Translations under genes and position numbers: made by a program
From: a bacterium
GTDB taxonomy: Bacteria; Krumholzibacteriota; Krumholzibacteriia; LZORAL124-64-63
Assembly: GCA_024223715.1 (NCBI GenBank)
Contig: JAAEOA010000352.1
Location: forward strand, 1-64,000
Direction: 5' to 3'
DNA length: 64,000 bases
Shown: positions 16,899 through 32,252 of the stretch, piece after piece
Position numbering within the stretch: position 1 is the first letter of the stretch
Layout of the letters: the number at the start of each line of letters is the position of its first letter
The notes under the pieces: model-generated
What the model saw: only the letters and a program-made list of their open reading frames with translations
Told to the model about the DNA's origin: nothing
The model's database searches: none

Positions 16899-18416
16899 CT
16901 AGACCGGTTGGGGTTCATTTTTGCCCATATCAGTTTCCAGTACATCAATCTGGTCAGCTTCCCGTAAAGCGCTATCCACTGCTTTGAGTAAATCGCTGCT
17001 GGAGACAGAGTTCTCATCTTCGTTTGTTTCAACTTCCATCTCTTCTGGATCCTGAACCCCATACTTTTTCAGTTTTCGGTACAGGGTCGATGCGTTAATG
17101 CCCAGGATTTCGCTGGTTTGTTTTCGTGCACCACTTGTCAATTCAAGAACACCCAAAATGTGGGCCTTTTCCAAGTCATCAAGGGTGATGTTTCCCCCCA
17201 CGGTCATTGCCCCAGAAGTATTTTCTGCTGTCGTTCTGTCCTGAAGATCCATGGGCAGATCATTCATCGTTATAACTGTATCATCCCGAATGATGCTTGC
17301 CCGTTCGATAACATTTTCCAGTTCCCGAACATTTCCGGGCCAGCTGTAGGTGTTTAAGGCATTAAGACAGAATTCGTTCATCATGGAACTCAAAGTCCCG
17401 TTGTATTCCTTGGGGCACAATTGGCGCAGGAAATGGTCGACCAACAGAGGTATATCTTCAGTGCGGTTGCGCAAAGGAGGCAAAACCAGCGGAATGACAT
17501 TCAATCGGTAGAATAAATCGATCCGGAAATTGCCGTCGGCCACTTCCTGTTCCAAATCACGATTGGTCGCAGCCACTACTCGAACATCTACTTTGATGGG
17601 TTTGCTGCTGCCAACAGGATAAATTTCCCGTTCCTGGAGCATGCGTAACAGTTTCACCTGAATGGCATGAGGAGTTTCGCCAATTTCATCCAGGAAAATG
17701 GTTCCCCCATTGGCCTGACGACAGAAGCCGTCATGATCACGGTCTGCACCTGTAAACGAGCCTTTAATGTGCCCAAAGAGCTGGCTTTCCAAAAGAGTTT
17801 CGGGAATGGCGCCACAGTTAATGGCCACAAAAGGTCCGTCACATCTTTCGCTGTGCTGGTGAATGGACTGGGCAATCAATTCCTTACCCGTTCCACTTTC
17901 ACCGTTAATCAGCACCGTGGCATTGGTGGCACTAATTTTTTCCACCATTTTATAGACTTCGCGCATGCGTGGACTGTTTCCCACAATTTTCTTGGCCCTG
18001 GCCCCCTTGGTCAGTTTCTTTTTCAGTTCGGTATTTTCCGTGCGGGCCTGGCGCAAGGCCAGAGCGTTGCGCACCACCATGCGAATTTCATCATTCTTGC
18101 AATGTTTTTGCAGATAGGAAAAAGCGCCAAGATTGACAGCGTCGATAGCCGATTGTTCACTGGCGTAAGCGGTCATTATGATTACGGTGGTTGTTGGATT
18201 TAGGGCCTTAATGCCCTTCAAAAGTTGAATACCATCCATTTTTGGCATCTGGATATCGGTCATAACCAGGTCTACGTCCTGCTCACCGATAAATTTAAGG
18301 GCTTCGGCTCCGCTATTAACTGTTGAAACCTGATACCCTTCCTTGCGCAAAAGAATGGAAAGGTATTGGCACATGGACTCCTCGTCGTCAACAATCAGGA
18401 TTCTGTCCTCGGCCAT
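16899..18416 (-). CDS. pilR: Sigma54-dependent response regulator PilR
   Basis: Receiver domain, AAA+ with GESGTGKE and GAFTGA variant GSFTGA, Fis-type HTH (ASTLYRKLKKYG). Confidence 0.93.
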   Translation of the reverse strand: MAEDRILIVDDEESMCQYLSILLRKEGYQVSTVNSGAEALKFIGEQDVDLVMTDIQMPKMDGIQLLKGIKALNPTTTVIIMTAYASEQSAIDAVNLGAFSYLQKHCKNDEIRMVVRNALALRQARTENTELKKKLTKGARAKKIVGNSPRMREVYKMVEKISATNATVLINGESGTGKELIAQSIHQHSERCDGPFVAINCGAIPETLLESQLFGHIKGSFTGADRDHDGFCRQANGGTIFLDEIGETPHAIQVKLLRMLQEREIYPVGSSKPIKVDVRVVAATNRDLEQEVADGNFRIDLFYRLNVIPLVLPPLRNRTEDIPLLVDHFLRQLCPKEYNGTLSSMMNEFCLNALNTYSWPGNVRELENVIERASIIRDDTVITMNDLPMDLQDRTTAENTSGAMTVGGNITLDDLEKAHILGVLELTSGARKQTSEILGINASTLYRKLKKYGVQDPEEMEVETNEDENSVSSSDLLKAVDSALREADQIDVLETDMGKNEPQPV

Positions 18417-18612
18417 GCTGGCTCCTTATGATCGAAAGTGGGCAAATTGCAGTGATAAAGCAGGTATCGGCGGCAAGGCCGGCCACCTTAACCCTAATCT
18501 TTGTATTTTTTTGATGTTTGATTAAATTTCGAGCCATGAATTTGCAGGGAAAGTCATGCAGAATGCGAGCTATCCAAGAAAGTCCATGTTTTCCCGGCTT
18601 TATTATTTAGGA

Positions 18613-20184
18613 TTATACAGAAAGGAGTTCTTTTGTTTTCCTACTGTCAACAGGGGGCTCTTTTGCCAATATTGAATCGGTATCGGCAGCTGAAGGGCTG
18701 TGCAAAAGCTCGGGAACATGAACCATTGGCCACCGAACCCGGAATGTAGAACCTCCGCCAGGAGAATCTTCATATTGAACATCTCCCCCATGAGCAATGG
18801 CGATACGCTGGACAATACTCAATCCCAGTCCCGTTCCTTTTTCCTTGTCGGTCATGAAGGGAGTAAAGAGCTCTTCGCGTATGTCTTCAGCCACACCGGG
18901 GCCATTGTCTGAAACAGCCAATTCCTGCCGTGTTCCTGCAGCCAGCAAACGCAGGCAAATTTTCAATTCACCTTCGTAATTCATAGCCTCACAGGCATTG
19001 ATCACCAAATTGAGTGCCATTTGAGTCAGTTGGCCCGGATCGGCAACAACATCCATATCGTCGGGCTGAACGCTACAGCTAAGGTGGATATTCCCATTGC
19101 GGGCGGCAATATGCTGTCTGATTTGAAGAGAAATTTCATCCCGGAATTCCTGGCCCGGGAAACGACGCCGGGTGGTGGTTCTCATGCGGGAGTAGGCAAG
19201 AAAATCATTAATGATGGTATTTACCCGGGAACTTTCTTTCAGGACAAGAGCCATCAGCTCAGCGTGTTCGCCATCGAGTTCAAGGTCATCGGCAAGCATT
19301 TCAACACTTCCGCGAATGCTCGATAAAGGATTGCGTATTTCGTGGGCAATGCTGGCGGCCAATTCACCCACGGCAGCAAGACGGTCATTTTGGCGAACCC
19401 GTTCGCTCATCTTTTTTTCACGAGTCAGATCTGTAAAAATGGAAATTGCCCCCATGATTTTGCCACTGGGAGCAATAATATGGTTCACATTTAAACCTAC
19501 GGGCATGTCACGTCCCAGACGTTTGAGACTGACTTCACCCCGATCAACTGCCGCACCACCTTCAGCCACCGGCATGATGGTTTCAGTCAGTGGCTCCATT
19601 CCTCCTCGGCAAATGTCGACCAGTTTTCGGCCCAGCAAATCTTTGTCTTCCATTTCCAAAATACGGCAGCAAGCGGGATTCACCCTCACCACCACACCAT
19701 TTTTGTCAACGGTAAGCAAGCCACTGCGAATGTTGTCAATTATGTTCCGCACTTCCCAGCGGGCTTTCTGAACTTTCAGATGATTATGGCTATCGCGGAC
19801 TTGCATTTTTAGGCTCTGATGGAAAAAACCCCAGGTCAGGCCCTGAACCAGTACAGCAAAAACGACAAGCAGGGCAATGACGGGTGGGGTTTGGTTGGCA
19901 AAAAATCCGACCAGTCCCACCGCCAGCACATCAATGACCATTTGAATGGGAAGAAGAGCTGCACTGTTCCATTTGCCGGCTTCAGCCATCCAGGCTAAAG
20001 CAATGGAAGTGCCCAGAACAGACAGTGTGCCAATCAGTCCAGCTCCAGAAGCGTAACCATTGCCATAGTGCCAGGAGATGAAGCTGGCACCGGCAAGAAC
20101 GGCAAACAATAGGCCACGACCGACAATTCGGGTATCTAGGTTGAGTTTACGGGAAAAGTTTCCCCCGGCATGCAAGAACATCAC
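18613..20184 (-). CDS. pilS: Sensor histidine kinase PilS
   Basis: N-terminal TM block, PAS domain, H-box SIAHEIRNPLSSIRG, N/G boxes NACEAMN, GTGLGLSIV. Confidence 0.93.
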   Translation of the reverse strand: MMFLHAGGNFSRKLNLDTRIVGRGLLFAVLAGASFISWHYGNGYASGAGLIGTLSVLGTSIALAWMAEAGKWNSAALLPIQMVIDVLAVGLVGFFANQTPPVIALLVVFAVLVQGLTWGFFHQSLKMQVRDSHNHLKVQKARWEVRNIIDNIRSGLLTVDKNGVVVRVNPACCRILEMEDKDLLGRKLVDICRGGMEPLTETIMPVAEGGAAVDRGEVSLKRLGRDMPVGLNVNHIIAPSGKIMGAISIFTDLTREKKMSERVRQNDRLAAVGELAASIAHEIRNPLSSIRGSVEMLADDLELDGEHAELMALVLKESSRVNTIINDFLAYSRMRTTTRRRFPGQEFRDEISLQIRQHIAARNGNIHLSCSVQPDDMDVVADPGQLTQMALNLVINACEAMNYEGELKICLRLLAAGTRQELAVSDNGPGVAEDIREELFTPFMTDKEKGTGLGLSIVQRIAIAHGGDVQYEDSPGGGSTFRVRWPMVHVPELLHSPSAADTDSILAKEPPVDSRKTKELLSV

Positions 20185-21392
20185 CCCACAATGCTGGACA
20201 TTTTAAACATGGGAAGGTACATGGCGACCAGCATACTGCCAACCATTCCCCCCATCAGGACAATCATCAATGGTTCAATGGCCGCAGTCAAAGCTTCAAC
20301 CGCCGCATCCACTTCATCGTCGTAAAAGTCAGCAATTTTGGAAAGCATTTCATCAAGAGCACCGGTTTGTTCACCAATACCGATCATTTGGGTCACCATG
20401 GGGGGAAAAACTCCGCTCGCTTTTAATGGAGCAGCGATGGTTTCACCCTGACTGATAGCTTCGGAAGTTTTGCCAATAGCTTCCTGAATGACTTTGTTGC
20501 CAGCGGTTCGACTGGTAATATCGAGCCCCTGAAGAATGGGAACACCAGATCCGATAAGAGTCCCAAGGGTCCGTGTAAAACGAGCCACAGCACTTTTTTG
20601 AAGAACGGAACCGAGGATGGGCACTTTTAATGCCCACTTGTCTGTCAGGTAAGCACCCTTTTGGGTTGCCCGGAAACGTTTGAAAGCAAAAGTAAAGAAT
20701 GTTCCACCCGCAAGCAGAGCCCACCAATAGCCCCTGATGAAGTTGGACAAGTTCATAACAATGCGTGTGGGGGCCGGCAACTCGCCGCCAAAATCGCTGA
20801 ACATCTTGGCGAAAACCGGAATCACAAACATAAGCATAAAAATGCAGGCCCCGCCGGCGACAGTAAGAACGATAGTCGGATAAGTCATGGCACCTTTGAC
20901 TTTGCGAGCCAAGGCATCGGCCTTTTCAAGAAAAACAGCCAGCCGACTGAGAATGACATCCAGGATACCACCTGCTTCACCGGCAGCAATCATGTTCACA
21001 TACAAATCGCTGAAAACCTTGGGATGTTTTTCCATGGCTTCGGCCAAAGTGGTTCCACCCTCAACATCGGCCATTACTTCCTGAACCACTTTTTTAAAAT
21101 GCGGTTTTTCCAACTGTTTTCCCAACACATCAAGACATTGGACCAGAGGCAAACCAGCGTTAACCATGGTGGCAAACTGACGTGTAAAGACCGACAGGTC
21201 TTTCACCCCCACACCTTTCTTCTGGAAAAAACTTATTTGGATGTCCTTGGGTTTTTTCTTAATAGAAGAAATTACAATGCGGCGTTGGCGCAAATATTCG
21301 CCTACTTCATTACGGTCTTTAGCTTCGTACTCGCCGGACAGGGTTTCACCCTTGGCCGTCTTTCCTTTCCATACAAACATTGTCGTGCTCAC
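20181..21392 (-). CDS. pilC: Type IV pilus inner-membrane platform protein PilC
   Basis: Two GspF repeats; FTRQFATMVNAGLPLVQCLDVL. Confidence 0.96.
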   Translation of the reverse strand: MSTTMFVWKGKTAKGETLSGEYEAKDRNEVGEYLRQRRIVISSIKKKPKDIQISFFQKKGVGVKDLSVFTRQFATMVNAGLPLVQCLDVLGKQLEKPHFKKVVQEVMADVEGGTTLAEAMEKHPKVFSDLYVNMIAAGEAGGILDVILSRLAVFLEKADALARKVKGAMTYPTIVLTVAGGACIFMLMFVIPVFAKMFSDFGGELPAPTRIVMNLSNFIRGYWWALLAGGTFFTFAFKRFRATQKGAYLTDKWALKVPILGSVLQKSAVARFTRTLGTLIGSGVPILQGLDITSRTAGNKVIQEAIGKTSEAISQGETIAAPLKASGVFPPMVTQMIGIGEQTGALDEMLSKIADFYDDEVDAAVEALTAAIEPLMIVLMGGMVGSMLVAMYLPMFKMSSIVG

Positions 21393-21406
21393 AAGCTATG
21401 CCTTTC

Positions 21407-22480
21407 TCAGGTGACCATTGCGGGATTTTCCAGCATCTGGGTCAATTCAGTGGGGTCGGAACTGCGGCCAATGGCCTGTTCTATTGATATCCATTTGTTG
21501 ATTACTGCCTGATACAAACTCTGATTCATGGTCTGCATTCCGTGTTTTTGACCGGCCTGCATAATTCCATAAATCTGATGCACTTTGTTATCACGAATCA
21601 TGGCTTTGATAGCCGGTGTGCAGACCATTATTTCCAGAGCCAAAACACGACCGCCCCCATGCAAACGGGGAACCAGTTGTTGAGTAACCACACCCGACAA
21701 ACTGAAAGCCAATTGACTGCGCACCTGATTCTGTTGTTCCGGGGGAAAGACATCAACAATGCGGTTGATGGATTCAAACGTGCTGTTGGTATGCAGAGTA
21801 GCCATAGCCAGGTGACCGGTTTCAGCCAAAGTCAAAGCTGCACCAATGGTTTCCCTGTCACGCATCTCACCGATGAGAATCACATCGGGATCCTGGCGCA
21901 GGACATACTTCAAGGCAGCTGGAAAGCTGTTGGTATCGCTATTGACTTCCCGCTGGTTAACTATGCAGTTTTTGTGTTGATGCACAAACTCAATAGGGTC
22001 TTCAATTGTGATAATGTGTCCGTGGCGATTGATATTTATTGTATCGACCATGGTGGCCAGGGTTGTGGATTTACCACTGCCCGTTGGCCCTGTAACCAGA
22101 ATCAATCCCTGGGTTTTGTTGATCAAATCCTGGCAAACCCTTGGTAAACCCAATTCCTCAAAAGTATTAATTTTATAGGGGATTTGGCGGATGGCCATGG
22201 ACGTTGCGCCCCGTTGCTGAAACACATTGGCACGAAAGCGGCTAATACCCTGAACTCCAAAACTGAAGTCGAGCTCCTTGTCGTTTTCAAAGCGTTTTTT
22301 TTGTTCGTCATTCAAAATGCTGTAAGCAAGATGCCGCGTCTCGTCTCCCGAAAGTTGTGGAAACTCACTTTTTAATACAGTCCCGTCCACTCGAAAAAGG
22401 GGTGGCAAACCCGCCGTAATGTGAAGATCACTTGCGCCTTTGCCGACCATTTCTTCTAATAATTCTCGCATTCCTACCAC
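21407..22480 (-). CDS. pilT: Pilus retraction ATPase PilT
   Basis: Walker A GPTGSGKSTTLA, DPDVILIGEMRDRETI, AIR(N)-like C-terminus, ASDLHITAG N-terminus. Confidence 0.97.
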   Translation of the reverse strand: MVGMRELLEEMVGKGASDLHITAGLPPLFRVDGTVLKSEFPQLSGDETRHLAYSILNDEQKKRFENDKELDFSFGVQGISRFRANVFQQRGATSMAIRQIPYKINTFEELGLPRVCQDLINKTQGLILVTGPTGSGKSTTLATMVDTININRHGHIITIEDPIEFVHQHKNCIVNQREVNSDTNSFPAALKYVLRQDPDVILIGEMRDRETIGAALTLAETGHLAMATLHTNSTFESINRIVDVFPPEQQNQVRSQLAFSLSGVVTQQLVPRLHGGGRVLALEIMVCTPAIKAMIRDNKVHQIYGIMQAGQKHGMQTMNQSLYQAVINKWISIEQAIGRSSDPTELTQMLENPAMVT

Positions 22481-22494
22481 GGGTAACTCTCTTT

Positions 22495-24192
22495 CTAATC
22501 CGCTACTGCGGTTTCGCGTAAGACTTCTTCGATAGTAGTGATTCCTTTTATGACCTTTTTAAGGCCATCGTCCCGCAATGTATCCATCCCCTCACTGCGA
22601 GCCTGATTTCTGATTTCCGTTGTCGATGACCGATTCAAAATATGCTCCCTGATACCAGGTGAAATGGGCATTACTTCGTACAATCCCTGACGTCCAGAAT
22701 ACCCGGTTCCGTTGCACGATTCACAACCTTTGCCTTTAAAGACGGGGGTTCCGGGTGGCAATCTCACATCCGCCAAGGCTTCATCGCTGAGTTTCAATTC
22801 TTCTTTGCAATCTTTGCAGATTCGCCTCACCAGACGCTGGGCCATGATCAGGACAGTACTGCTGGCAACAAGGAAAGGTTCAATTCCCATATCGATCATA
22901 CGGTTGATGGTTGCCGGAGCATCGTTTGTGTGCAGGGTGGATAAAACAAGGTGACCGGTCAGGGCAGCCTTGGTGGCAATACCACCGGTTTCCAAATCTC
23001 GAATTTCACCAACCATGACTATGTCAGGATCCTGCCGCAGAAATGCTTTCAGGGCCGAAGCAAAAGTCAGCCCCACCGAGTCACGAACCTGGACCTGATT
23101 AATTCCGTCAAGATTGTACTCAACAGGATCTTCGGCGGTCATAAGGTTTGTACCAGGAATATTTAGTTTTGAAAGGCAGGAATACAGAGTTGTTGTTTTA
23201 CCAGAACCGGTAGGTCCGGTTACAAGCACCATTCCAAAAGGAGAGGCGATGGCCTTATAAATTCTTTCAATGGCCTCTTCTTCCATATTAAAATCAGCCA
23301 GATCCAGATTCAAATTGCCTTTATCCAGAATACGCATCACAACTTTTTCCCCGTAAATACAGGGCAAAGTACTGACACGCAAATCTACTTTCTTAGTACC
23401 GATTTTGAGTTTGATACGCCCATCCTGAGGAATGCGGCGTTCGGCAATGTCCAACTCGGACATAATTTTTAACCGGCTGATAATTGCATTCTTCAGTTTT
23501 ACCGGCGGCTCCATTACTTCCTTGAGAACACCGTCAACACGATAACGAACCCGCATAAAACGTTCGTAGGGTTCCACATGAATATCACTGGCTCCCATTT
23601 TAACTGCTTCGGCCAAAAGCGTATTTACCAGTTTAACCACTGGAGCGTTTTGTCCATCTTCGCCCAGAATGTCGTCTTGTTCCTGTTCCTCCACTAATTC
23701 GATATCATCTTCAAGGCCTTCCATAATGGAAGCCAGGGAATCCGCGGAGGCATAATATTTATCGATGGCCCCCTTAATGGCCATTTCACCGGCAACTACC
23801 GATTGAACTTCCAAACCAGTAATAAATTTTATGTCATCAATAGCAAAAATGTTGCTGGGGTTAGCCATGGCCAGAGTGAGAACCCGGCCGGCACGACTGA
23901 TTGGCAAAACCTGAAATTTCCGGGCAACGTCGTCAGGAATACGTTCAATGCACTCAATTTCAATTTCAGTTTTTGCCAGATCAATAACCGGAATACTGAA
24001 CACCTTGCCCAGATGCTTGGTGAAGGTTACTTCATCCACAGCTCCGGTTTTCACCAAGGCTTGCCCAATGGTACCGCCATCTTTTTTCTGTAATTCCAGA
24101 GCCGCCGTTAAACTGGCATCATCTATGACGCCATTTGCCAGAAGATCCTGAGCGACTTTATCCCGAACCTGGGTTGTTGCCGATACATTCAT
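22495..24192 (-). CDS. pilB: Pilus extension ATPase PilB
   Basis: GspE/MshEN N-domain, GPTGSGKTTTLY, tetracysteine CKDC...CESC; start trimmed to MNVSATT at 24192. Confidence 0.96.
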   Translation of the reverse strand: MNVSATTQVRDKVAQDLLANGVIDDASLTAALELQKKDGGTIGQALVKTGAVDEVTFTKHLGKVFSIPVIDLAKTEIEIECIERIPDDVARKFQVLPISRAGRVLTLAMANPSNIFAIDDIKFITGLEVQSVVAGEMAIKGAIDKYYASADSLASIMEGLEDDIELVEEQEQDDILGEDGQNAPVVKLVNTLLAEAVKMGASDIHVEPYERFMRVRYRVDGVLKEVMEPPVKLKNAIISRLKIMSELDIAERRIPQDGRIKLKIGTKKVDLRVSTLPCIYGEKVVMRILDKGNLNLDLADFNMEEEAIERIYKAIASPFGMVLVTGPTGSGKTTTLYSCLSKLNIPGTNLMTAEDPVEYNLDGINQVQVRDSVGLTFASALKAFLRQDPDIVMVGEIRDLETGGIATKAALTGHLVLSTLHTNDAPATINRMIDMGIEPFLVASSTVLIMAQRLVRRICKDCKEELKLSDEALADVRLPPGTPVFKGKGCESCNGTGYSGRQGLYEVMPISPGIREHILNRSSTTEIRNQARSEGMDTLRDDGLKKVIKGITTIEEVLRETAVAD

Positions 24193-24308
24193 TGTGTGAT
24201 TCCTCGTCACTACTATGGCCCAAAGTTCCAGCATACCCTGATGCCGGTCTGCGGATTATTTTCATCCCTCAATTTTTCGGCCAGGCAGGGAGTGACTTTA
24301 ACATGTAA

Positions 24309-24761
24309 TCATGGTATTTCAGGAAACACTTGAAAACGGGCTGAATCGGCAGTTTCTGTCATTGTCTGAATATTTCGGCCATAGAGAACAAGAGTATCGA
24401 GGCGGGCGGAAAGTTTTTCACCAATTCCTTTAATTGTGCGCAAATCTTTTGCTGAGGAAAAAACCAGCCCTTGTTGGCGAGCTTCGTCGATGCGAATGGC
24501 CATGACTTGCCCCACCCCAGGCAACAGCTGCAAGCTGTCCAAACTGCAAGTATTAATTGGCAGGGGTGTAGTCAATTTTGGTTTGGATTTTTTCAGGCCG
24601 TTTTCCGAAGCCAGGGCTGAGGCTGGCATAAGAAATTCATCTAACCAAAGGCTCTCTTTCCAGTTGCCTTCATCATTCAATAGCATGGTGTGCCGCACCA
24701 TACGACCGGCCATAATCAATAAAAAAGCGAAGAGAATACCCATGGCCTGCCGACGAGGCAT
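24309..24761 (-). CDS. Membrane-anchored helix-hairpin-helix (ComEA-like) protein
   Basis: TM near N-terminus; INTCSLDSLQLLPGVGQVMAIRIDEARQQGLVFSSAKDLRTIKGIGEKLSARL; start set at 24761 to avoid the long overlap with the upstream CDS. Confidence 0.75.
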   Translation of the reverse strand: MPRRQAMGILFAFLLIMAGRMVRHTMLLNDEGNWKESLWLDEFLMPASALASENGLKKSKPKLTTPLPINTCSLDSLQLLPGVGQVMAIRIDEARQQGLVFSSAKDLRTIKGIGEKLSARLDTLVLYGRNIQTMTETADSARFQVFPEIP

Positions 24762-24775
24762 AAGTGGCAATTTAT

Positions 24776-27361
24776 TTAGTAGAGAAAAACCCAGTGCAGA
24801 CGCATGTCCATTTCCATTCCCGGACTCAGAGTGGCCGAGCTCAACCTTATCCTCTGATTCGTCACATTGCGGAAATTCAGCGACAGATGAGCCCCCACCA
24901 ACCGGAACCCCACCAGCAGATCCAGAGTATTGCCCGAAGGCAGAGTCACTGTTCGGGTAACATCCCAGGGGTCGGTCATGGCTCCCCGATGAGTTCCGAA
25001 CATCGCCAGTTGGAGAATGCCGTCCTCCTGGAAAAAATGTTCCTCCCACATCAGTTCCATCCGCAGGTATTTTTCCGGAGGCAGGAAAGCTGCCTGATTT
25101 TTCTTCTCGTCGAAATTCTGCCATGTCCCCTCCAGACGGGCCCGCCCCCAGCCCAGGAAACGCCCCTGACGAGCCATTGAAACAGTCAGCCGGGTGCTGT
25201 CCATTTCCAGGTCGTTACCCCAGGTACCGGTTCGGGATTCGGGGCCAATGGCCATCCAGGTTATGCCCTGGCGTAATTGCCGGGCACTGGCATCAAAGGC
25301 AAAATCAAGGCCAAGAATGTGTTTTTGGAAGAGGAGGCCTGCTCGCAAGGTTTTTTCGTGTTCCAGGTCTGCATTGGGCAAGAGGTAGAGACTCTCCGAG
25401 GTGACAACATGCCTTAAAGGTGTCAACAATTCGTCACTTCGTGGTGCCCGGCCGCCAAGTTCGATAGCCATTTTCCACCAAGGCTGATATTGATTGGCTT
25501 GCCAAGCGACAAAACCACCGGGATTAATACCTGCCCGGTCCTGGTAATCTCCCGACAGACCAAAATTCAATCGGGTGACACCCAGATCCAACCCGGTACG
25601 AGCAACCAATCGAGCCTCAAGGCCATCGCCACTGATCGCAGTGTCCGAGTCATAACTCCAAGAGGGGCCGTCGTCATGAACATCCCAATGGTTGACCATC
25701 AGCCTCAAACCACTGTCCGGACCATTCAAGCTTTCTTCCCTCAGGCCACTGTCCGTTTGGAATTCACTCATCAATAAAACTGAATCGACAGGGGCATGGA
25801 TGAAGTCGACAATAATGCCCTCCCGGCCGGTTTCCAGTTTGCGCAAATTGCTGGCTGAAATCCCTCCAAGGGGTCGGTCTCCCCATTCAACAGTGCGACT
25901 GTCCCAATGCAGAACTGAACGCATAGCCCAGCTTCCAGCCCTCGTGCGGGCTGTAAGAGCGGCTCCATTGACCCAGATTTCCTGATGTTGGGCTCCAATT
26001 GTGGGTAAATCGTCTTTGGTTTTTCGGGAGGCCGTATACTGAAGTTCCAGACTGTTTTGATCGTCCAAATGCCTTATCAAACGAGTCCGACTGCGACGGA
26101 TGCTTGAATGCCCCCGGAACTCATTTCCACTATAGAAATTTTCATCAGGTAATTCAGTGTAGTTGTAGCCTTCATCGTCAATATTCTCGTCAAACTCAAA
26201 ACCCAAACGCCAGGCCGCTTTCGGGGTTAATAGGCTAATTCCCCGGGAATATGTTTCATGGGGTCCTTTGATGCCTTTGTAATACGAAACCGCTTTGCTT
26301 TGGTCTTTTTCATCGGTCTTCAGATTCAGGACACCATCGGTTCCACCAGCCCAGTCGCGGCCCATTTTCTGTTGGATAAGAACCAGTCCCTGATTGGAGA
26401 CAAGCCATGGATCGTCGGCCAATTTGTGCCCCGTGCCCTGGGGAATGCCGTCGTGAAGGAATAGTGGGCTGATTGATGTATTGCCTTCCCCCAGAATGAC
26501 AGTCATGCCTCCCAGGCCGCCATCAGTGATAGGGACCCATTGAGTTCGGGTGTTTAACCAGGCCACCGTGGATGCCGAAAATGGATTCCACAGAGGACGC
26601 TTCCAACCATTGATTCCCGGTTTCGTTTCAGGTGCCAAGGGTAAGGCCGGATTAAGAACAGAATCTTCATGAGCAGCCGACATGCTATCAGTTTGAGCTG
26701 GGAATTCCTGAGCATGGACTTGAAGACTAAAAAACGAAGTTGTCAGAATGAGAAAACCCAGAACAACAGGCGTTGAATTTCTGGCAACCAGAGCCGATTG
26801 GCCCAAAAAGCCCAAACGACGAACAAGAGAAGGAAAAAACAGAAAAAAGATGATGGAATTTACCCCTATATGAACAAGAGCGAAATAGGCCATACCAGCA
26901 ACAATGGCCATGGCGGAGACATCAGGAGTCATCACCACAATAGCAAGGTTTGTAAGGATTTGATAAAATAAAGTTCCCATAAAGCCAGCAGCAACAGCCA
27001 GAATATGAGCTCGAAGATTGGTTCGATTACCGGACAGAGCCCTGATTCGGGTGCCCAGAAACCACCCCAAAAATCCATTCAAACCGTGCCCTAGCATTTG
27101 CGCAACCAGAAGTACCGGAGGTGGGGGCCCATAAGGATTGCCCAGGGAATAGATGGTTCCCGCCAAAACTCCACACAAAGGACCCAGAGCCGGCCCCAGG
27201 ACAACACCTGACAAGGCAATAATCAGGGTCATTAATTCAACATTTGGCACACCCGAAAGCAAATACCCCGTACCCACAGCAGTGCCTGCAAAAAGGCCCA
27301 GCAAAACAGGTTGCCGGACCGAAGGTTTTTTTCTTTCTGGAAGTTCATTTTTCATGCCCAC
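24776..27361 (-). CDS. Fusion: N-terminal polytopic ECF S-component-like domain, internal signal-peptide-like segment, TonB-dependent receptor-like beta barrel
   Basis: Residues about 15-180 polytopic with ECF-S-like pattern; residues 197-217 STPVVLGFLILTTSFFSLQVHA|QE; then plug-like and barrel sequence ending FRNVTNQRIRL...MRLHWVFLY; one uninterrupted frame. Confidence 0.7.
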   Translation of the reverse strand: MGMKNELPERKKPSVRQPVLLGLFAGTAVGTGYLLSGVPNVELMTLIIALSGVVLGPALGPLCGVLAGTIYSLGNPYGPPPPVLLVAQMLGHGLNGFLGWFLGTRIRALSGNRTNLRAHILAVAAGFMGTLFYQILTNLAIVVMTPDVSAMAIVAGMAYFALVHIGVNSIIFFLFFPSLVRRLGFLGQSALVARNSTPVVLGFLILTTSFFSLQVHAQEFPAQTDSMSAAHEDSVLNPALPLAPETKPGINGWKRPLWNPFSASTVAWLNTRTQWVPITDGGLGGMTVILGEGNTSISPLFLHDGIPQGTGHKLADDPWLVSNQGLVLIQQKMGRDWAGGTDGVLNLKTDEKDQSKAVSYYKGIKGPHETYSRGISLLTPKAAWRLGFEFDENIDDEGYNYTELPDENFYSGNEFRGHSSIRRSRTRLIRHLDDQNSLELQYTASRKTKDDLPTIGAQHQEIWVNGAALTARTRAGSWAMRSVLHWDSRTVEWGDRPLGGISASNLRKLETGREGIIVDFIHAPVDSVLLMSEFQTDSGLREESLNGPDSGLRLMVNHWDVHDDGPSWSYDSDTAISGDGLEARLVARTGLDLGVTRLNFGLSGDYQDRAGINPGGFVAWQANQYQPWWKMAIELGGRAPRSDELLTPLRHVVTSESLYLLPNADLEHEKTLRAGLLFQKHILGLDFAFDASARQLRQGITWMAIGPESRTGTWGNDLEMDSTRLTVSMARQGRFLGWGRARLEGTWQNFDEKKNQAAFLPPEKYLRMELMWEEHFFQEDGILQLAMFGTHRGAMTDPWDVTRTVTLPSGNTLDLLVGFRLVGAHLSLNFRNVTNQRIRLSSATLSPGMEMDMRLHWVFLY

Positions 27362-27428
27362 AATTTACTGTATCGCAAAAACCAAAGCAACCAGAGTGTT
27401 TGCCTCATGTCAAATGAATGGCTGATAG

Positions 27429-29162
27429 TTAACTCTGGAGTGTCAGTTTGGCCAGGCGACGTCCAACATCAAGAAAACCGGATTCCGATTCGTTGATCAT
27501 TTCGAACAACCTGAGGGCTTCGTCTTCGCGATGAGCTTGCTCGTGGGCTCGGGCAATGTGATAAAGCAAACCAAAATATTCTCGGCTGCCTTCATCAGGA
27601 ACATCCAAACCATCGGTTAGTATGGCAATAGCTTCTTCAACCTGGCCATTGCGCAGCAGGGAGATTCCCCACATCTCATACGCCCGAACGGAAAACTCCG
27701 GGTGGCAGGATGCTTTTTGGAAACTGTCAGAAGCTTTATCGTGCATTCCCATTTCCAGGTATACCATTCCCATTTCGTACAGGCTGGCCGGATCATCTTC
27801 GGCCGATTCGCCCCCGAGCTGGGAGCCAATTTCATCGCTGATGGTTTCCACTTCTTTTACAGGAGCCTGATAAGATGATTCGCTGTCATCGGATAGTATT
27901 TCATCCAACAAATTGATTTTTGGTTTTTCTTCTGTCGGTTCCGTGGAGAAATCTGTGGGGAATGAATCAACACCGGCAGGAACTGCCTCGGAAGATTCTT
28001 CCGTTTCCGTTTCGCCCTGGTTTTCAACTTGGGAGGTGGCCTGAGCAATCAAGTCATCAAAATTGGTCCCGGAATCGGCATCCAGATTGAAACATCCACT
28101 ATCGTCAACCTGTGAATCGGTCTCGGGGACACTCTTTTCAAAATCATGATCAACCGGTTCTGGAGTAGCAGGTGTTGAAACATCCTGAATTGATTTATCC
28201 TGAACAATGGACAGTTCGTTTGGTTCATCAAGATTAATTCCACCAAAATCGGTCTCAGCCGCTGGCGAACCACCGATTGTTTCCGGATCTGGATCCGGAG
28301 TGCTGTCCACAGGAATGATAACTTCTTTTTCCGCAACTGGATCGGCAGTTGCTTCAGAAGTTGTTTCAGAAGAAAAATCGGCAAATGGATCAACGGAAGC
28401 TGGTTCTTCCGGGATTTCAATAACCTCCAGAACCTCATCTTCAACTTTTTCTTCTGCAGAGGTATCAAAGCTCATTGAATCGAAGTCCACAGTGGCTTGG
28501 GCAGTGTTGTCAACACCACCATCACGTTTTTGCCAACGTGTGTATTCGGGATAGTTAGCCAGTCCAGGAATCTGGTTTATGACCTCTTCGACCATTTTAC
28601 TCGCAGGTTCCCGTTCGCCAGCGGCCCATTTAAGCACACCCATCTGAATTTGAATTCGGCCTGATTCCTGAGTCATATTCCACATCCGGAAAACTTTCAG
28701 CAGGCTATCCAGAATTTCGGTATGATCAGGATATAGTTCAAAAAGTTTGACGCACCGTTTCAGAAAAATTTCCTTAATATCACTGCTGAGCTCCTCGTTA
28801 TTTTCCAGGAAAATCAGCGCGTGATTGGCCCCTTCCATTAAGAGGCCCTGTATGGCGCGACTTTCAGCCAGGAACCAATGTGCGTTGATATTTTTGGCAT
28901 CGTGACGAAGAATTTTTTTATAAATGGCCACCGCATTGTTGAACAGCCCGGTTTTTCGGTACTTTGAAGCAGCACTGAGGAAGTGGCTGACACCCCGTGG
29001 GGTTTGCCCTGCTTTGAGACAAAGATCACCCAATTCATTAATTAAGGTAGGATTGCTTTTGTCCAGTTCCAGAATCTGTTCATATAAAGAGACAGCCTGT
29101 TCCCAGTCACGCTTTTTCCCAGCCTGATAGGCATCTTGTTTTAATTGGCTTAACTTCGACAA
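27429..29162 (-). CDS. TPR protein with long acidic low-complexity linker
   Basis: N- and C-terminal TPR blocks (YEQILELDKSNPTLINELGDL; YLEMGMHDKASDSFQKA) separated by a D/E/S/T/P-rich region of about 230 aa. Confidence 0.85.
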   Translation of the reverse strand: MSKLSQLKQDAYQAGKKRDWEQAVSLYEQILELDKSNPTLINELGDLCLKAGQTPRGVSHFLSAASKYRKTGLFNNAVAIYKKILRHDAKNINAHWFLAESRAIQGLLMEGANHALIFLENNEELSSDIKEIFLKRCVKLFELYPDHTEILDSLLKVFRMWNMTQESGRIQIQMGVLKWAAGEREPASKMVEEVINQIPGLANYPEYTRWQKRDGGVDNTAQATVDFDSMSFDTSAEEKVEDEVLEVIEIPEEPASVDPFADFSSETTSEATADPVAEKEVIIPVDSTPDPDPETIGGSPAAETDFGGINLDEPNELSIVQDKSIQDVSTPATPEPVDHDFEKSVPETDSQVDDSGCFNLDADSGTNFDDLIAQATSQVENQGETETEESSEAVPAGVDSFPTDFSTEPTEEKPKINLLDEILSDDSESSYQAPVKEVETISDEIGSQLGGESAEDDPASLYEMGMVYLEMGMHDKASDSFQKASCHPEFSVRAYEMWGISLLRNGQVEEAIAILTDGLDVPDEGSREYFGLLYHIARAHEQAHREDEALRLFEMINESESGFLDVGRRLAKLTLQS

Positions 29163-29304
29163 GTGGTAAACCCCGCAGACAATGTTAGTTGGTCATCTGC
29201 CCTGTTGGTTTCACCGGCCCATTCCGATGAGTCCTTGAAGTTTTATCGCCAGAAACACCCGGTGGTTTAGGGCTTTTTTTTCACATGGCATAAAAATATA
29301 AAAA

Positions 29305-30633
29305 TCAGTTATTCAGAACCCTTTGCCCACCAAGAAAAACTGTTTTGACCGGATTATGCCCGGCCCTATAAGGAATGATTCGATAGTCAGAATCATCAAG
29401 AATAAGAAAATCGGCCTTTTTACCAGGTGCCAGAGAACCCACCTCATGGCCTCGACCCAAAGCCCAAGCAGCATTCAGAGTGGAAGCAACCAGGGTTTCT
29501 GCAGGCAGCAAACGCATTTGAGTGCACGCTAGAGCCATTATCAGCGGCATGGACATGACGTTGCAACTGCCTGGGTTATAATCGCTTGCCAGAGCCAGGA
29601 TACAGCCCTGATCAATCATTTCTCTGCCAGGAGGATAGTTTTTAATTCCCAGGGAAAAGACGGTGCCGGGCAGCATGACCGCCACGGTATCGGATTGAGC
29701 CAGAGCTTGCCTTCCCTGGGAATCGATTTTTATCAGATGATCGGCCGATTGAGCCCCCAGTCTGGCAGCCAATTGAGCCCCTCCAAAAGTGGCCAGTTCA
29801 TCGGCATGAACCGTCAGTTCCATGCCCAGATCCCGGGCACGGCTGAGAATGATCAGGCTTTCTTCCAGGTCAAAAACCGTAGGCTCACAGAATACATCGC
29901 AGCGTTCCGCTAGATTTTCAGCTTTCACCCGAACCAGGATTTCGTCAGTCACCAGATCAACATAAGCTCGTCGGTTGTCTTTGTATTCTTTGGGGATTTC
30001 GTGAGCAGCGAGACAGGTTCGGACCAGGCGAATGCCAACATTTTCAGCCGCTCTGCCAGCAGCTCTCAGCATTTTCAGTTCATCTTCAAGAGTGAGGCCA
30101 TAACCACTTTTTATTTCAACTGTTGTGGTTCCATAGGAAAGCATTTCCTGCAACCGGCCGGTGGTCAGATCGACCAATTCTTCTTCGCTGCGTTGCCGCA
30201 GATCGCTCACAGATGAGTGAATTCCACCCCCGGCAGCAGCAATTTCCAAATAAGTTTCGCCCTTGATGCGGCGTTCGTATTCATCCTGACGGGTTTTTCC
30301 AAAAACACTATGAGTATGAGGGTCCACGAACCCGGGAATAACCGCAAAGCCGTCCGCATCAACAACCTCAAGCTCAACCGGGAGGTTTCCGAGGGATTCA
30401 CATTGTAAAACGTCTTTTAGTAATTCCGGTTCCGGCCCCACGGCTGCAATTTTATCTTCGCATATCAAAAGAGCGGCATTTTCAATCATGCCCAGTTCAG
30501 ACATTTCAGTCCGCCGTCGGGGACCCGCTTCGTTTCCCGTATCCAGAGAGCATAGTTGACCAATATTGCGAACCAATAGGCTCGGCCTATGTTTCTTTAA
30601 AAGATCAGAGTCCACTCGCAGCAGGTTACTCAT
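29305..30633 (-). CDS. hutI: Imidazolonepropionase
   Basis: VIPGFVDPHTHSVFGKTRQDEYERRIKGETYLEIAAAGGGIHSS...; start trimmed to MSNLLRV. Confidence 0.95.
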   Translation of the reverse strand: MSNLLRVDSDLLKKHRPSLLVRNIGQLCSLDTGNEAGPRRRTEMSELGMIENAALLICEDKIAAVGPEPELLKDVLQCESLGNLPVELEVVDADGFAVIPGFVDPHTHSVFGKTRQDEYERRIKGETYLEIAAAGGGIHSSVSDLRQRSEEELVDLTTGRLQEMLSYGTTTVEIKSGYGLTLEDELKMLRAAGRAAENVGIRLVRTCLAAHEIPKEYKDNRRAYVDLVTDEILVRVKAENLAERCDVFCEPTVFDLEESLIILSRARDLGMELTVHADELATFGGAQLAARLGAQSADHLIKIDSQGRQALAQSDTVAVMLPGTVFSLGIKNYPPGREMIDQGCILALASDYNPGSCNVMSMPLIMALACTQMRLLPAETLVASTLNAAWALGRGHEVGSLAPGKKADFLILDDSDYRIIPYRAGHNPVKTVFLGGQRVLNN

Positions 30634-30671
30634 TAATATCTCCCGTTTTAGCAAACGTTTAATGGAACAGG

Positions 30672-32252
30672 TCAGGCAATAGGATCCAGACATTTCAACG
30701 TTGCAGCAGGAATTTCACCCTGTCGCATCCATGCAGTGATAATTTCCAGGTCTTCTGTTAAAGGCCGGTCGGCAGGGCCCAGATCAATGCGTTTGTCCAT
30801 GGCCTTAATCAAATCATTCAAGGGAGTTGATAGTTGAAGTTGAGACCGATTACCGGAATCAGCCAAATCCTGGCGGGTGATAAACTGAAGGGCCCTCGCG
30901 GCAGTGATCAGTTCCACAGCAATGACCGTACGGGTTCTCGCAAGAACTCCGGCCAGTTTAACTGCCGAGACGCTACCCATGCTGACATGATCTTCCTGGC
31001 CATCACTAGTGGGAACAGAATCCACAGCAGCGGGAAAAGCTTTGGATTTATTTTCCGTCACCAGAGCAGCCGTCAAATACTGAGCAATCATGAGACCGGA
31101 TTCCAGGCCTGGCTGGCCGGCCAAAAAGCGGGGCAGCCGTCCCCCATTTCCCCCGAGCAACAGATTAACCCGACGGTCGCTGATATTAGCCAACTCGCTA
31201 GTGGCCTGATACAAAAAATCCAGCTGAAAGGCCAAAGGCTGGCCGTGGAAATGGCCTCCGGTAACCACTTCCTTTTCTTCGGGCAATAGCACCGGGTTAT
31301 CGGTTACTGATCCAGCTTCACGCACAAAAACTTCCGTGACTTGCCGCACCACTCCCAGAGTTGAGCCCAAAACCTGAGGACTGCAACGAACTGAATAAGG
31401 ATCCTGAACACGGGGACAATCGTAGTGGCCAGCCAGAACCTGACTGCCCTGGAGTAAATTTCGGAAACTGTGAGCGATGTCACCAATTTCCTTATGTGGC
31501 CGAACACTGTGGTACTTTTCTCCGAAAGGAAGAGCGCTTCCTTCCAGAGCCTCCAGAGACAGCGCTGCAGCCAAGGTGGCCCAACGGACCAATTGTTTGC
31601 TTTGACCGGCGGCAAGCAACCCCAGACTGTTCATCAGCTGAGTTCCATTGATCAGGGCTAAACCTTCTTTGGCTTCCAGAACCAGTGGCTGACGTCCTCT
31701 GGACTCCAAATCAGGACCAGCAGGTCGACGCCGGCCTTGATTGTCCAGCAAATGCCCCTCACCCATCAGCACTAAAGCTAAATGCGAGAGGGGAGCCAAA
31801 TCGCCCGAAGCTCCTACCGAGCCACGGCTGGGAATGAACGGGTGAAGGTTTTCTTCCAATAACCACAGCAATTGCTCAATGACTTCAACCCGAGCGCCAG
31901 AAAAACCGTGAGAAAGACTCATGGCCCGTAAAAAGATCATCCCCCTGGCCTGACTCAGAGAAAGAGGCTCGCCCCATCCCACAGCGTGGCTCCGGATTAA
32001 ATTCCTCTGCAAAGCAGTTTGTTGTTCCAGAGGAATAACAGTGTCGGCTAAACGACCGAACCCGGTATTCACTCCATAAATCCGTTTGGAAGATGAAGCA
32101 AGACTCTGCCTAAACTGGTCGCACCGTTCCACTTTTTGCCGGGATGATTCAGAAAGAATCACCGATATTTGCCCGTGACATATGTTTTCAAAAACTTCCA
32201 GATCCAAAGGTGATTCACCAATGACAAACAAATCCTTTTGAGCAGATTTCAA
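30672..32252 (-). CDS. hutH: Histidine ammonia-lyase
   Basis: MIO motif GSVGASGDLAPLSHLAL, VNTGFGRLAD. Confidence 0.96.
   Translation of the reverse strand: MKSAQKDLFVIGESPLDLEVFENICHGQISVILSESSRQKVERCDQFRQSLASSSKRIYGVNTGFGRLADTVIPLEQQTALQRNLIRSHAVGWGEPLSLSQARGMIFLRAMSLSHGFSGARVEVIEQLLWLLEENLHPFIPSRGSVGASGDLAPLSHLALVLMGEGHLLDNQGRRRPAGPDLESRGRQPLVLEAKEGLALINGTQLMNSLGLLAAGQSKQLVRWATLAAALSLEALEGSALPFGEKYHSVRPHKEIGDIAHSFRNLLQGSQVLAGHYDCPRVQDPYSVRCSPQVLGSTLGVVRQVTEVFVREAGSVTDNPVLLPEEKEVVTGGHFHGQPLAFQLDFLYQATSELANISDRRVNLLLGGNGGRLPRFLAGQPGLESGLMIAQYLTAALVTENKSKAFPAAVDSVPTSDGQEDHVSMGSVSAVKLAGVLARTRTVIAVELITAARALQFITRQDLADSGNRSQLQLSTPLNDLIKAMDKRIDLGPADRPLTEDLEIITAWMRQGEIPAATLKCLDPIA

Follow-up and report, generated by a model that had tools for sequence, protein, structure and literature searches.

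An ECF S-component fused to a TonB-dependent receptor in one family of Krumholzibacteriia: a probable two-membrane polyprotein for corrinoid import

In the 64,000-nucleotide stretch of Krumholzibacteriia DNA that was analysed here (the window), a single gene encodes an ECF S-component domain that is followed, in frame, by a signal-peptide-like segment and a TonB-dependent receptor, and this fusion is conserved across most of one bacterial family. The product is, in our judgement, probably a natural two-membrane polyprotein, cut by signal peptidase I (SPase I), that serves the import of cobalamin or another corrinoid together with a solitary EcfT and replaces BtuCDF. The fusion and its conservation, the folds of both halves, the signal-peptide features, the BtuB-like character of the unfused relatives and the alternation of the S-component with BtuC-type permeases were all established by computation.

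The fused gene and its two domains

Positions 27361-24776 of the window, read on the minus strand, form a single open frame of 861 codons without any internal stop codon (Table 1). The original prediction had described this unbroken frame, leaving its strand unstated, and had read in its translation a polytopic N-terminus, a signal-peptide-like stretch, a plug-like stretch and a C-terminal barrel, all of which are present. Only the length needs amendment: relatives align to the ATG at 27355-27353 as the start position, and hence the product is probably 859 rather than 861 amino acids long. The genome from which the gene comes is an incomplete draft of 4.6 Mb.

Table 1. Features of the fused gene, with positions in the window.
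Feature	Residues	Position	Strand	Basis or remark
Fused gene (ECF S-component + internal signal peptide + TonB-dependent receptor)		24776..27361	minus	861 codons from GTG 27361
ECF S-component domain	~16-185	26807..27316	minus	Fold and family profile
Internal signal peptide / seventh hydrophobic segment	~194-217	26711..26782	minus	Predicted SPase I cut after Ala217 (QVHA↓QEFPA)
Reduced plug domain	~265-349	26315..26569	minus	AF2 elements before barrel; profile alignment to unfused plug-containing receptors starts here
~22-stranded beta-barrel	~358-861	24779..26290	minus	AF2 and Foldseek

The six-helix S-component fold is present in the N-terminal half, as judged by AF2 and Foldseek. The AF2 model of residues 1-217 has a mean pLDDT of 88.3, and when these residues were compared with the PDB using Foldseek the best 19 matches were all ECF S-components (BioY, PanT, FolT, RibU, ThiT and others), with modest E-values (0.015 upward) and probabilities that were mostly about 1.0. 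The Pfam model PF12822 gives the window protein alone 21 bits, for a cut-off of 30.7, and matches 31 of the 33 family members at E<1, the best of them at 8.9e-9; taken by itself the window protein thus has only weak support from sequence, whereas its family has good support. A profile of the S family searched against the PDB matched 6FNP best, over the whole domain (E 5.1e-4), with PanT behind it at 6.7; 6FNP is ECF-CbrT, the vitamin B12 ECF transporter of Lactobacillus delbrueckii (PMC5997447). The sequence match to CbrT is weak. A further match, 5WUF, was disregarded because it spans the domain only partially. The predicted identity of the N-terminus as an ECF S-component is thereby upheld both by fold (the top 19 Foldseek matches) and by family profile (PF12822 and 6FNP).

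The C-terminal half was modelled as a plugged barrel of about 22 strands (AF2, residues 218-861; mean pLDDT 82.6). The PDB entry that it matches best in Foldseek is 1NQG, calcium-bound BtuB (E 6.7e-22, TM 0.77 of target); siderophore receptors and more BtuB structures come next, and all of the best 50 matches are TonB-dependent transporters. The barrel thus has the TonB-dependent-receptor fold that had been proposed for it, and is closest to BtuB. Identity between the fused barrel and BtuB is only about 10%. As BtuB is small, and size may favour it in a fold search, the sequence result from the unfused relatives is more telling: a profile of the unfused receptors searched against the PDB also placed BtuB first (E 3.8e-13), and among siderophore receptors the best reached 1.7e-9. 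Homology between the fused and the unfused receptors extends over 527 columns of a profile alignment (E 5.5e-10). The unfused receptors match Pfam Plug, down to 7.1e-16; a Pfam search of those fused barrels that were scanned, and an NCBIfam search of the window barrel, returned no match, Pfam Plug included, and by this measure the recognisable plug signature is lost in the fused receptors. No clear TonB box could be found by eye in the fused form, in which the mature N-terminus is variable and modelled with low confidence.

Distribution and origin of the fusion

When 58 related genomes were searched, the fusion was found without an intervening stop codon both within the genus, where five more genomes carry it at 51-70% identity, and in eight additional genera of the family, where identity of the parts falls to about 31-45%. 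The fused genera number nine in total, all in one Krumholzibacteriia family, and the open frame of the fusion has been maintained over deep divergence. Recurrence of the identical unbroken fusion in so many separately assembled genomes rules out chance, and a frameshift or assembly error, as its source. The original prediction had called for a search for the same fusion in relatives and was to be refuted if homologues were always encoded as two genes; it survives, with the parts fused in one family and encoded by separate genes in others.

In the other families of the class, the S gene and the receptor gene are unfused and adjacent, in the equivalent genomic place, and the gene order is a TPR gene, sometimes one more gene, the S gene, the receptor gene and pilus ATPase genes. 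The junction between S and receptor is an overlapping ATGA in four loci (L034, L035, L042 and L043), and in another (L036) the two are parted by one in-frame TGA only. The simplest origin that can be inferred for the fusion is loss of the stop between two translationally coupled genes. In a tree of the barrels, the unfused receptors from other families form one group (support 100/100), and the receptors that lack an S-component form another (95/99), which lies beside some of the fused receptors. The tree allows, but does not prove, a history of one fusion and one later loss of S, the decisive fork having support of 80/70. Among relatives the two parts occur separately, fused and with S lost, which makes the family a natural experiment.

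Some genera of the family (L049:3639-5390, L051, L052 and L053) are without both the S domain and EcfT and have kept the receptor with its own signal peptide; they carry FecCD permeases, and in L049 the receptor lies directly 3' of hutI. The neighbourhood of the S/receptor pair is conserved in the window (16899-32252) and class-wide: histidine-degradation genes and the TPR gene lie on one side, and a ComEA-like helix-hairpin-helix gene with the pilus genes PilB/PilT/PilC on the other.

The junction and its predicted processing

In the 23 fused proteins the six-helix domain is followed by basic residues and a hydrophobic run, and in nearly all of them by a small-x-small site as well, so that the n-region, h-region and cleavage site of the signal-peptide-like linker that had been predicted are kept in nearly all of the fused relatives. 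The features of an SPase I substrate (charged n-region, hydrophobic core, small residues at -3 and -1) are present in the window protein too, where the predicted cleavage motif is AxA↓Q. Six helices leave the chain inside, and the seventh segment consequently runs in-to-out, as is required of a signal peptide.

In the mechanism proposed here, the six-helix S-component would insert first into the cytoplasmic membrane with its C-terminus inside, and the hydrophobic segment that comes next, positively charged at its inner end, would serve as a signal sequence within the chain. A cut by signal peptidase I after Ala217 would then free the barrel into the periplasm for assembly in the outer membrane, whilst the S-component would remain in the inner membrane. 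Both the cleavage and the localisation are inferred. The term 'self-cleaving', which had been applied to the product, is wrong, because the inferred cut is made by signal peptidase I.

Direct cleavage data are lacking and such a precursor is unusual in nature, and it could be argued that the fusion remains uncut, as a single chain that bridges the two membranes or is mis-sorted between them. We regard this as very improbable, given that the linker diverges apart from its conserved cleavage motif, after which Gln is frequent, that the S-lacking receptors retain an N-terminal signal peptide of their own, and that the short, variable linker after the cleavage site seems, by inference, unsuited to spanning the periplasm.

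The receptor might also be made mainly from an internal translation start, the fusion being no more than a harmless read-through of two coupled genes. The overlapping ATGA junctions of the unfused relatives would fit such an arrangement, as would the in-frame GTG or TTG codons that precede the signal segment in some fused frames. However, four of the 23 fused frames (L018, L020, L024 and L026) offer no potential start codon (ATG, GTG or TTG) ahead of the hydrophobic segment, and the receptor must there derive from the precursor; a Shine-Dalgarno-like match before such codons was found in just one of the 23 (L005), and the frame stays open over deep divergence. The internal start is accordingly given hardly any credence. 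Since internal initiation cannot serve as a general explanation for the receptor, SPase I cleavage after Ala217 to yield two products is the best inference that the sequences allow, without proteomics or biochemistry and without cleavage itself having been shown.

A glutamine occupies position +1 of the predicted cleavage site in 16 of the 23 fused proteins by our own count (window 26708-26713), which resembles the Q-rule of Bacteroidetes; this rule has been reported not to extend to the entire FCB group (PMC5837995).

The case for cobalamin as substrate

The substrate had been considered unknown. Cobalamin is now indicated by the similarity of the two halves to CbrT and BtuB, by the alternation with BtuC-type permeases and by the lack of CbiC; it is the most likely substrate, although transport and substrate are both inferred and the evidence is indirect. 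The corrin synthesis gene cbiC (precorrin-8X methylmutase) is absent from all 58 genomes examined, and the genome of the window encodes the B12-dependent methionine synthase MetH and methylmalonyl-CoA mutase; it follows that this organism very likely imports corrinoids. Its genome has no strong FecCD/BtuC permease, one distant match reaching 37 bits.

Across the 58 genomes, a strong FecCD permease was found in 3 of the 39 that have the S-component and in 16 of the 18 that do not; one genome (G013) is undetermined and was left out of the S-positive count because its contig breaks inside the gene. The exclusion between S and FecCD gives a Fisher p of ~2e-9 with G013 counted as S-positive, a value that overstates the association, as the alternation is phylogenetically clustered. 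The contrast is carried by about three lineages, namely the S-less clade of the fusion-bearing family, family f3 and family f5. The FecCD permeases match both B12 and siderophore models, in every case below the equivalog cut-offs; some adjoin BtuF-like genes, and one adjoins a cobalamin adenosyltransferase. In G044 the FecCD gene adjoins a ferrichrome-type binding protein, and this genome may therefore not be a true double of S and permease.

Neither a cobalamin riboswitch nor any other Rfam match was found at the window locus. The one cobalamin riboswitch of the genome lies ahead of two other genes, one for a different TonB-dependent receptor, whose match to a B12-receptor model falls below cut-off, and one for a second secreted protein; the fused system is thus either not riboswitch-controlled or serves a different corrinoid. 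It is also possible, if unlikely, that the polyprotein is made and processed as proposed but carries a vitamin other than cobalamin, such as riboflavin, folate or a queuosine precursor. This would accord with the match of the S domain to the riboflavin S-component model PF07155 (5.4e-4, below cut-off) and with the presence in the genome of that separate riboswitch-controlled B12-type receptor. It sits less well with the best solved relatives of both halves, CbrT and BtuB, being B12 proteins, and with the usual absence of the S-component where a BtuC-type permease is present; moreover, with all 58 genomes lacking CbiC, most of the S-positive ones would, minus S, be left without a recognised inner-membrane B12 importer.

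The riboswitch locus itself (G000:C425; L074:4045-7737) consists of the riboswitch, the TonB-dependent receptor and a secreted gene that ends in a FlgD_ig / secretion-tail domain. By eye the product of this second gene is repeat-propeller-like, and it is possibly an analogue of BtuG, which is a beta-propeller (PMC10404256). The riboswitch-linked pair of receptor and secreted gene recurs in other families of the class.

Proposed partners of the S-component

For cobalamin or another corrinoid, the receptor would provide the outer step of import and the S-component the inner step; the S-component would work with a solitary EcfT encoded elsewhere, and the route would replace BtuCDF. That the substrate is cobalamin, and that EcfT and an ATPase yet to be identified are the partners, remains inferred. 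It had been noted that the window holds no EcfA or EcfT genes; EcfT does exist elsewhere in the same genome (28.8 bits, cut-off 25), but a dedicated EcfA was not found there either. In the fusion-bearing family, EcfT is present in 23 of 25 S-positive genomes vs none of nine S-negative ones. No dedicated EcfA or EcfA' scored above the strict cut-off in this (incomplete) genome or in seven relatives. The best EcfA candidates of the genome are, by eye, ATPases of the MacB/LolD, Mla, sugar-importer and export types. A B12 importer whose two subunits come from one SPase I-cut precursor, and whose S-component acts with EcfT and no dedicated EcfA, another ATPase being borrowed or none used, is offered only as a tentative picture that may well prove incorrect in full.

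The solitary EcfT gene (G000:C158:33881-34654; L055:4882-5655) is flanked by asd and truA and has no EcfA gene as a neighbour. The asd-EcfT-truA cluster is also found in family f6, and hence in two families of the class.

Comparison with known systems

The nearest precedent for the processing of the window polyprotein is FbcH, the cytochrome b/c1 polyprotein of Bradyrhizobium, in which a polytopic membrane protein is continued by a cleavable signal sequence within the chain and then by a partner that is exported. The products of FbcH both remain in one inner-membrane complex, whereas those of the window polyprotein would reach different membranes. A limited literature search yielded no description of a single bacterial gene whose product is bound for both membranes, inner and outer, of one uptake route, and nothing usable on receptor fusions or FbcH-type polyproteins. 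The parts are known and their combination, a natural polyprotein for two membranes, is new. If the proposal is true, an internal signal peptide can function behind a polytopic protein and supply a product for assembly in the outer membrane, and these uncultured, apparently corrinoid-requiring bacteria gain an inner-membrane B12 importer, the lack of which is a known gap for many Gram-negatives (PMC6072759).

The proposed system would act in the manner of BtuB combined with an S-component importer. ECF-CbrT (6FNP) shares the S-component fold with the window protein and is the best solved profile match of the S family (PMC5997447). It differs in that CbrT is a separate Gram-positive protein working with an ECF module, whereas the window S-component is joined to a receptor of the outer membrane and has no identified EcfA. 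BtuB is likewise the best fold match of the fused barrel and the best sequence match of its unfused relatives, and the window receptor departs from it in its identity of about 10%, its reduced plug without a Pfam Plug match and the S-component in front. The nearest published idea is BtuM, a solitary B12 S-component-like inner-membrane transporter of Gram-negatives that have BtuB but not BtuCDF, whose role in B12 import was predicted partly from co-localisation with btuB (PMC6072759). Like the window S-component as proposed here, BtuM is a small inner-membrane protein of S-component type for B12 import; unlike it, BtuM has a gene of its own and comes from an organism that lacks EcfT, whereas the S-component of the window is fused to its receptor and co-occurs with EcfT.
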